Of a stretch of DNA of 64,000 bases, positions 14,199 through 17,266 are shown in pieces; positions within the stretch are counted from its first letter, which is position 1, and every line of letters begins with the position of its first letter. The DNA comes from Verrucomicrobiota bacterium. Lineage in GTDB: Bacteria; Verrucomicrobiota; Verrucomicrobiia; Opitutales; UBA953. The notes under the pieces were generated by a model. That model did no database searches, was not told where the DNA came from, and saw nothing but the letters and a program-made list of their open reading frames with translations. The stretch is from the NCBI GenBank assembly GCA_014193315.1, contig BJHS01000001.1, positions 1 through 64,000 of the forward strand, in the 5' to 3' direction. The position numbers and the translations under genes were made by a program.

Positions 14199-15854
14199 AT
14201 GACCTTCGCTTCCCCGCCCCGTCGGGCCTTTCTTCGGCAAATCGCCTGGCTCGGGGTCGGTGTCTGGGCCGCGCGGCTTCCGGCGGCGTCGGCCGGCGAG
14301 GCCTTTGACGTCTGCGTCTACGTCGGCAACGCCAGCGGCGTGATGGCGGCCTGCGCGGCCGCCAAGGAGGGCGCCAAGGTCGTCGTGATTGAGCCGAGCC
14401 GTTGGTTGGGCGGCATGACGGGTGGCGGCTTGATGCATGTTGACTGGGGCCGCGAGGAGGCCGTCAGCGGCTCCACCCGCCCGATTCTCAAGCAAGGTTT
14501 TGAGGACCCGCAGTACCGCGCGACTTTCGTGAAGATGCTGGCCGACGCGGGGATCCCGGTGATCTACGACCACCGCGTCAGCGCCGTGGAGAAGGTAGCC
14601 GGCCGGATCCGCGCCATCACGCTGGACCGCGCACCCTTTGACGCGACCGGCTGTCCGCCGGCCCAGCCGGCGCAAGCCGCGGCCCGGGTCATCCGCGCCC
14701 AGGTCTTCATTGATTGTTCCTACGAAGGCGACCTGCTGGCGCAGGCCGGCGTGGCTTACACCTTCGGCCGTGAGGCGCGCGATACCTATGGTGAGTCGCT
14801 CGCCGGTGCGCAGCCCCCGATGTCGGTCTACGCCATCGACCCTTACGTGCAGCCGGGCGACCCCGCCAGCGGCTTGCTGCCGATGTTGCAGCCAACGCCC
14901 GTGGCCGCGGTGGGGGCGGCGGATCGGCTCACGATGGGCTACGGCTTCCGCTGGAAGTTCACGTTCAAGGGCGACGGGCTGCCCATCGACCCGCCGGACG
15001 ACTACGACCCGAAGCAGTTCGAACTCTACCGCCGCGCCTTCCAGCAGGGCGTCGACATTCTCGCTGGTCGTGTGATGCGCGGCAAGGTCGACGGGTGGGA
15101 GTCGAGCGGTGGCCGCATCTTCTCCGGCGGCGCTGGTAATCTCGCCCGGGCCTTGTTCGCGCCCACGAACTACGGGAGCAACGCTGGCTACCCCGACGGC
15201 GACTACGCCACGCGCGCCCGTATCTGGAAGGCGCAGCAGGACTTCGTCCGCGGCATGACGCATTTCCTGCGGACCGACCCGTCCGTCCCGGAAAAACAGC
15301 GGGAACTCGCCCGCTCGGCCGGTCTGGCCAAGGGTATCTTCGACGAGACCCGCGGCTATCCCCATCAACTCTACGTCCGTGAAGCCCGGCGCATGGTCTC
15401 GGACTACGTCGTCACGCAGAAGGACCTGGCGGGGAAGGGGATGCCGGAGGATTCGGTCGGCCTGGCTTCCTACGGCGTCGACGAGTGGCCCTACGCCACC
15501 GTCCCGCTCGGGGGTAAGGTCGCCTTGATGGGCGGCTATTACTCCATGCTCTACCTGGAGGAGGAACATCGCGGTATTTACCGGATCCCTTACCGCGCGA
15601 TCCGACCGAAGCAGGCGCAGTGCACCAACCTGCTCGTCCCCGTCTGCGTCTCCGCCAGCCACATCGCCATGACCTCCCTCCGCATGGAGCCCGTCTGGAT
15701 GATCCTCGGGGAGAGCGCTGGGGTCGCGGCGGCGCTGGCCGTGCGCGCCGGCGTCGCCGTGCAGGAGGTGCCCTACGCGGAACTTTATCCCAAGCTCCGG
15801 GCGTTGACCCAGAAGGTCGACCTCCCGAAGCCAAAGGAGACTAAGCCGAAATAG
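14199..15854 (+). CDS. Tat-exported FAD-dependent oxidoreductase (FAD_oxidored family)
   Basis: 551 aa. A twin-arginine signal is visible at the N-terminus (RRAFLRQI, then a hydrophobic stretch to about residue 28). The FAD-binding Rossmann motif follows: [15 protein letters not shown], ending in the [18 protein letters not shown] block typical of Pfam FAD_oxidored. The C-terminal part carries the second FAD contact region ([13 protein letters not shown]). In Verrucomicrobia and Planctomycetes these proteins are usually secreted and sit with carbohydrate or sulfatase genes; the substrate is unknown. The last 14 nt overlap the convergent ferredoxin gene. The long opposite-strand frame here is a shadow. 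Confidence 0.9.
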
Positions 15855-16224
15855 GTCCGGCGAATCGCAGGTCCGCGACGACGTGGCCGCCGATGAGGTG
15901 TTCCTGGATGATGCGGTCGAGATTGGTCGGCGTGCAATCGCGATACCAGATGCCTTCGGGGTAGACCACCGCGATTGGCCCTTGCACGCAGACCCGGAGG
16001 CAGTCGGCCTTGGTTCGTTGCAAGCCGCCCCGCCCGTCGAGCCCAAGTTGTTTCAAGCGGGTTTTCAGGTGTTCCCACGACGTCACCGCGAGCGCGCCCC
16101 CGCAGCAGGCCTGCTCCGTTGATTTCACGCAAAGAAAGATGTGCCGTTGCGTGCCCTCCAAGCCGAGCGCGCGGGCTTGGGTGGTGGCGTCCCGCTTGCC
16201 AGTCGGGTCAGGGGGAGGGTTCAC
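15841..16224 (-). CDS. Thioredoxin-like [2Fe-2S] ferredoxin
   Basis: 127 aa. It matches the (2Fe-2S) ferredoxin domain with the thioredoxin fold: a strand RHIFLCVKS, then ACCGG, and the second cysteine pair C-L-R-V-C in [21 protein letters not shown]. These supply the four cluster ligands. The typical C-terminal W-Y-x-x-x-T-x-x-x-L-D-x-I-I-x-E-H-L is present. The start is GTG at 16224, which overlaps the TGA stop of the exonuclease gene (GTGA), so the two are translationally coupled. The end overlaps the convergent FAD oxidoreductase by 14 nt. The redox partner is not evident. Confidence 0.9.
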
Positions 16225-17078
16225 TCGAAACGCGGGGCGATCCCGCGCTTCTCGAGCTCCAGGAAAAGTTCGCGGCTATACCAGGCGTCGTTCGCCGCAT
16301 ACTGGATCTGATTGTCCTGCAGTTCCTCGTCCCAGTGCGAGGTCTGCACCTTCTTCGATTTCTTCATTTGGCGGCTGAGGTAGTGCGCCGCCAGGGCGCG
16401 CAGGCCGGTGTTTTCGACGCCCGCCTTCTTGGTGAAGTCGGCGATGTCGATGAAGCCTCGGCTGTCGAAGGGGGCGCGGGCCTGGAGGTTCTTGACATCG
16501 TCGCGGACCGCCACCCCGACCTTGGCCTGGCGGGGGTTGCAAAGGAGCGGGAAGATTGGGGCCAGCCCACCGCAGTGCAGGAGCGGCTGCCGCATCGGGC
16601 CATGCAGGCGGAAAATGTAGACGCAGTGCTCGCCCGCGAGCTGCAGGATGGCCGGCAGGTTCTTTGGCGGCTCGATCTCGATGGTGTCGCCCGCCCGGAC
16701 GTAATGCCCCGGGAAGGAGGCTTTGCCGTTCACCCAGAGGTAGGATTCCTCGATGCTCTTGCCGCGCATCAAGTGGCCCAGTTCGCGGCTGGCCTTGCTT
16801 TCGCCCGCGATGACTTTGTCGGCGCGGCCGGTGCGCTCCCGGACCTTGAAGATGAAAGATGGTCGACCGAAGACGGGGCGGGTCTCGGTGTCGAAGCCCA
16901 GGACCCGTTCCTTGGTTAATTGCGCCACCGCTTTCTCGGCGGCCTTGAGCGATTCGACAAGGACGATATCGCCCTCCCAGTGGGCGACGGGGAGGCTCTC
17001 GATGAACTCCGATTCGACGCGCAGACCCCGGGAAGCGCCTGGTTCGTGCGGCGGGGGGGTGTCGGCGGATTCTTCCAC
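16221..17078 (-). CDS. Ribonuclease D-like 3'-5' exonuclease with inserted S4-like RNA-binding domain
   Basis: 285 aa, GTG start at 17078. The DEDDy exonuclease motifs are visible: Exo I D63-x-E65 in GFDTETRP, Exo II Asp194 in VRDDVKNL, and Exo III with the [12 protein letters not shown] helix near the C-terminus. Between Exo I and the strand LPAILQL lies an extra segment of about 60 residues (79-140). It reads like an S4 domain: R-x-D-K-V-I-A, A-S-R-E-L, a VNGK turn, and [10 protein letters not shown] know of no standard ribonuclease D with an S4 domain here. The gene is coupled to the ferredoxin downstream. A role in RNA processing is inferred. Confidence 0.85.

Positions 17079-17190: not shown

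Positions 17191-17266
<76 letters not shown>

Follow-up and report, generated by a model that had tools for sequence, protein, structure and literature searches.

A segment of 64 residues was found inside the catalytic domain of a DEDDy 3'-5' exonuclease; by sequence comparison it is most likely a divergent S4 domain, of the type present in RluA/RluD pseudouridine synthases. The gene is encoded in the window analysed here, a stretch of 64,000 nucleotides from a genome of Verrucomicrobiota (Opitutales). Our main reading, to which we assign a probability of about 0.6, is that a chromosomal DEDDy nuclease of freshwater Opitutales gained a divergent S4 insert a single time and that this insert would act as an RNA clamp.

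The open reading frame that the preliminary description had placed at 16221..17078 is genuine and lies on the minus strand, where it encodes 285 residues (GTG start at 17078, TGA stop at 16223-16221). A tRNA-Ala (GGC) gene detected by ARAGORN is its neighbour on the opposite strand (17191..17266, plus). The Exo I D-x-E, Exo II D and Exo III Y-x3-D residues of the nuclease are all intact, and the three motifs are invariant in the alignment. Exo I (F-D-T-E-T, residues 62-66, with D63 and E65) is encoded at 16881..16895, the Exo II aspartates D193 and D194 at 16497..16502, and the YxxxD motif of Exo III (Y260-D264, reading YAAND), which provides the DEDDy signature, at 16287..16301, all on the minus strand. 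The whole protein matched PF01612 (DNA_pol_A_exo1) with an E-value of 1.5e-15 (57.9 bits, cut-off 23.6), the main match covering residues 172-278, and it was the only protein in the source genome to match this family. By its motifs the protein is classed as a single-domain DEDDy 3'-5' exonuclease. The preliminary description had called it an RNase D type; the DEDDy part of that assignment holds, although the protein is not RNase D proper as no HRDC domain was matched by Pfam. The Ribonuclease D model rnd (TIGR01388) gave 21.5 bits, far below its cut-off of 298.95, and the relatives with solved structures are the DEDDy domains of WRN and EXD2 (the best matches) and of NrnC-like enzymes.

Alignment with insert-free orthologues from congeners places the inserted segment (64 residues, 192 bp; 16662..16853, minus) after the strand bearing Exo I and before the next strand, where it interrupts the nuclease domain in the stretch that separates Exo I from Exo II. 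The insert-free orthologues read ...FDTETKPSHTRGEY followed directly by NLPSILQLAG... at the junction, which sets the boundaries at residues 76-139. The proposal that a domain had been inserted between these two motifs of a DEDDy nuclease is thus borne out, with its limits shifting slightly from the residues 79-140 first suggested, and the S4 landmarks named for it (R85-A-D-K-V, A-S-R-E-L, V-N-G-K and V-R-A-G-D-T-I) are all present. When residues 76-139 were removed in silico, PF01612 gave one continuous match over profile positions 3-171 of 173 (E 5.9e-18, 65.7 bits). A second insertion specific to the same clade, with approximate boundaries, adds eight residues (GPMRQPLL) at about 160-167 (16578..16601, minus), shortly after the next strand, at a site where the insert-free relatives read FRLD--------VCGG. 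Near this second site, a longer and separate insertion is present in another clade of the genus (L027-L030).

Orthologues of the nuclease were found in 53 of 57 related genomes. Besides the source genome, only the orthologue in G014 matches without a break among these genomes, the others being without roughly residues 73-138. When the segment by itself was searched for across the family, insert carriers were recovered in three of the 55 genus members (G000, which is the source genome, G014 and G082) and none in the other genera, and no further carriers were found in samples of 372 genomes from the order and 387 from the phylum. Ordinary relatives in these genus, order and phylum searches therefore lack the insert. 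The original proposal would have been refuted had ordinary RNase D carried the insertion across many phyla, and no such case emerged. The named carriers are freshwater Opitutae assemblies (an Erken-D3 bin and BS10). The presence of the insert in three separate genomes rules out an assembly artefact, with identities of 93-94% between the insert of G000 and those of the other two carriers. In the tree, the proteins with the insert fall into a single clade (support 100/100), for which one gain suffices.

The preliminary description had also noted a translationally coupled [2Fe-2S] ferredoxin as an odd partner for the nuclease. The overlap is real: a thioredoxin-like ferredoxin gene of 127 residues resembling the nuoE type lies downstream of the nuclease (15841..16224, minus) and its open reading frame overlaps the nuclease stop codon (GTGA). 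Most congeners without the insert have the overlapping ferredoxin gene at this position too, while in a few the ferredoxin was not found beside the nuclease. The ferredoxin thus says nothing about the insert, and a partnership between the two is ruled out. The ferredoxin of G000 is only 77-78% identical to that of its sister species, for which the nuclease and RluD show 94-95%, and 83-87% identical to those of a more distant group of congeners (G032, G017, G023 and G020). With G014 the values are 78% for the ferredoxin and 95% for the nuclease. The closer resemblance to the distant group makes it likely that the ferredoxin gene of G000 was replaced by recombination.

The assignment of the insert to S4 depends on the profile used. 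The Pfam S4 model (PF01479) listed neither the nuclease nor the insert alone at E-values up to 10, and scanning the insert by itself against Pfam and NCBIfam revealed no S4 domain. This model is weak in the clade, where the S4 domain of the genus's own RluD just clears the cut-off (24.2 against 22.8 bits, a margin of 1.4). A profile of RluD S4 domains, for which the sequences were picked by their catalytic domain and independently of the insert to avoid circularity, gave 20.7 bits against the insert, a score that none of 5000 shuffled sequences reached (best 8.4), and hhalign returned a probability of 96% for the same pair. The comparison of the segment with S4 by which the preliminary description proposed to check its claim is therefore positive with the clade-specific profile and negative with Pfam. 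In a decoy test on 4456 six-frame open reading frames, the clearly non-S4 frames reached at most 5.7 bits, and the insert proteins scored 12.9-15.1 bits, which places them with genuine S4 proteins and above most ribosomal-S4, RsuA and TyrRS S4 domains of the same genomes. A phylum-wide search with an insert profile gave ten non-self matches at E 0.05, seven of which fall in the S4 domains of enzymes of the RluA, RluD or RsuA kind, and RluD and RsuA S4 domains were also among the matches in the order and family searches. S4 domains are a tiny share of each genome (5-7 matches), so their dominance among the insert matches is far above chance.

The two halves of the insert contribute unequally to this resemblance. 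The second half (VNG...GD.IE) scored 14.2 bits with the RluD-S4 profile, and the N-terminal half (R-x-DK...ASR) scored a weak 7.8 bits, reached by one of 2000 shuffles; the insert aligns with S4 only if a gap of 3-4 residues is allowed to separate the R-x-DK part from the VNG part. In the RluD of G041 (L145, G041:C157), the S4 domain itself is longer by about 16 residues, which lie between its R-x-D and SR motifs.

The insert could instead be a beta-grasp domain of the ubiquitin-like kind (Ub-Mut7C, TGS or MoaD/ThiS-like) that contacts RNA or protein, families which have the VNG...GD.I pattern in common with S4. The sole Pfam match in the insert, over its second half, was to Ub-Mut7C (PF14451; E 0.008-0.036), at 14.4-16.5 bits and thus below the cut-off of 23. 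An AlphaFold model of the insert alone, built from a two-sequence alignment (pLDDT 62, pTM 0.41), shows a beta-hairpin, a helix and further strands and not the two-helix start of S4, so that this low-confidence model looks more beta-grasp-like than S4. Foldseek and VIA-align searches with it gave nothing significant; the top Foldseek rows included Rel TGS domains and MoaD (all E >= 2), and S4 was unlisted, which does not exclude it. The full-length model of the nuclease, from a five-sequence alignment, had a pLDDT of 31 and was discarded as unusable, and PDB sequence searches with the insert returned chance matches only. A ThiS control profile, on the other hand, scored -2.1 bits against the insert with an hhalign probability of 0.6%, TGS and ThiS proteins were absent from the genome-wide insert matches in which S4 proteins dominate, and the R-A-D-K-V-x-A and A-S-R motifs are of the S4 type. 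We therefore consider a beta-grasp domain unlikely and retain a divergent S4 domain as the most likely identity of the insert: match enrichment and the clade-specific profiles favour the S4 identity first claimed, Pfam does not, and structure prediction is too weak to decide. Separately, 19 related genomes all proved to be without a TGS domain (PF02824) match at E 0.001, whereas each of 14 control genomes has the domain; in this order, the TGS domain of threonyl-tRNA synthetase or Rel may be missing or very divergent.

The origin of the insert was followed in the source genome and in mobile elements. No other copy was found in the source genome at the DNA or protein level, and phages, plasmids and viral contigs contained no significant relatives. 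A DNA match of 22 bp was found between the insert and the start of the S4 region of the genome's own rluD (E 0.14); it is suggestive of a link, but a shared motif together with codon use could explain it. The sharp boundaries of the insert and its restriction to one clade would also suit a selfish or random in-frame insertion, such as a palindromic coding element, that is tolerated and has no function. A mobile palindromic element is ruled out by the lack of another genomic copy and of inverted repeats. Selection points the same way: the inserts of G000 and G014 differ at 23 nucleotides and five amino acids (dN 0.033, dS 0.54; dN/dS about 0.06), as compared with a dN of 0.028 and a dS of 0.78 for the rest of the nuclease gene. 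The insert is kept by purifying selection comparable to that on its host gene, and with its detectable S4 homology in addition, a functionless insertion is very improbable.

The nuclease core of the insert clade has changed rapidly, with identities of 67-71% to the nearest congeners, compared with 83-87% for RluD in the same species pairs; this gap is smaller or absent in most of the insert-free pairs compared. We read the fast change of the core, together with the eight-residue insertion, as refitting of the fold after the insert was gained, although relaxed constraint around the time of the insertion is an alternative cause. Refitted contacts would also be expected if the insert, whether derived from S4 or not, were a structural or protein-interaction element (an oligomer interface or a regulatory lid) without RNA binding, and the second insertion in the same clade would agree with this. 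NrnC, a single-domain DEDDy enzyme in which substrate entry is governed by oligomerisation (PMC6330322), speaks for the same reading. The S4 domains of characterised enzymes bind RNA, however, and several basic residues are preserved in the insert along with the SR motif. We regard an interface or lid without RNA binding as rather improbable, and an RNA-contacting S4 insert as the better account.

The proposed clamp rests on the position of the insert and on analogy with better-known proteins. In the mechanism that we favour, the 64-residue segment was gained once, in the loop that leads from the Exo I strand to the following one. Its spatial placement draws on the sequence and on what is generally known of DEDD folds: a segment directly after Exo I would project near the catalytic cleft, and the insert is thus predicted to sit beside the cleft. 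There it may select or hold structured RNA, for example rRNA or tRNA 3' ends, and the DEDDy site would trim RNA 3' ends while the insert grips the substrate. A comparable arrangement is known from RluB, whose S4 domain takes hold of the substrate stem-loop at its loop end and fixes it beside the active site, an arginine of the domain being the main RNA anchor (PMC3919597); the insert keeps the A-S-R motif. In MUT-7/EXD3, a DEDDy nuclease, the added RNA-binding domain MUT7-C raises both the binding of RNA and its degradation (PMC11347159). A more specific version, in which an RluD-type S4 domain was captured once in the nuclease catalytic fold, the substrate range changed and the core co-adapted rapidly, is possible and is put forward tentatively, being somewhat doubtful as a whole. 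If this version holds, an internal domain insertion would have turned a general exonuclease into a targeted one acting, for example, on structured rRNA or tRNA 3' ends.

The insert-free sister enzymes are about 70% identical to the insert-bearing nuclease and so provide a natural before/after pair for asking what a domain inserted internally does to the specificity of a nuclease and how the fold that receives it adapts. Our literature search, the coverage of which was incomplete, found no account of a DEDD nuclease that contains an S4 domain.

Compared with known systems, the nuclease shares its Exo I, II and III motifs and its PF01612 match with the DEDDy enzymes of this family (NrnC, EXD2, the WRN exonuclease domain and the RNase D catalytic domain) and differs from them in having 64 additional residues between Exo I and Exo II. 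The insert in turn has the R-A-D-K-V-x-A, A-S-R, V-N-G-K and G-D-x-I-E motifs in the same order as the S4 domains of RluA and RluD (PF01479) and, with a local profile, reaches scores typical of divergent S4 domains, whereas it has 3-4 extra residues before the VNG strand and receives no Pfam S4 call. The S4 domain of RluA and RluD is N-terminal to the synthase, while the insert is embedded in the nuclease. The resemblance to Ub-Mut7C is a short sub-threshold match over the VNG...GD part that leaves the first half of the insert unmatched. MUT-7/EXD3 is likewise a DEDDy nuclease with an added domain, but MUT7-C is C-terminal and unrelated and the present insert lies inside the catalytic domain. 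Extra substrate-binding domains of RNase D-type nucleases are normally found at the ends of the protein (HRDC, MUT7-C and HEAT-like repeats); here, in one small clade, an RNA-binding-like domain lies within the catalytic fold itself and adjoins the Exo I motif, which binds metal.
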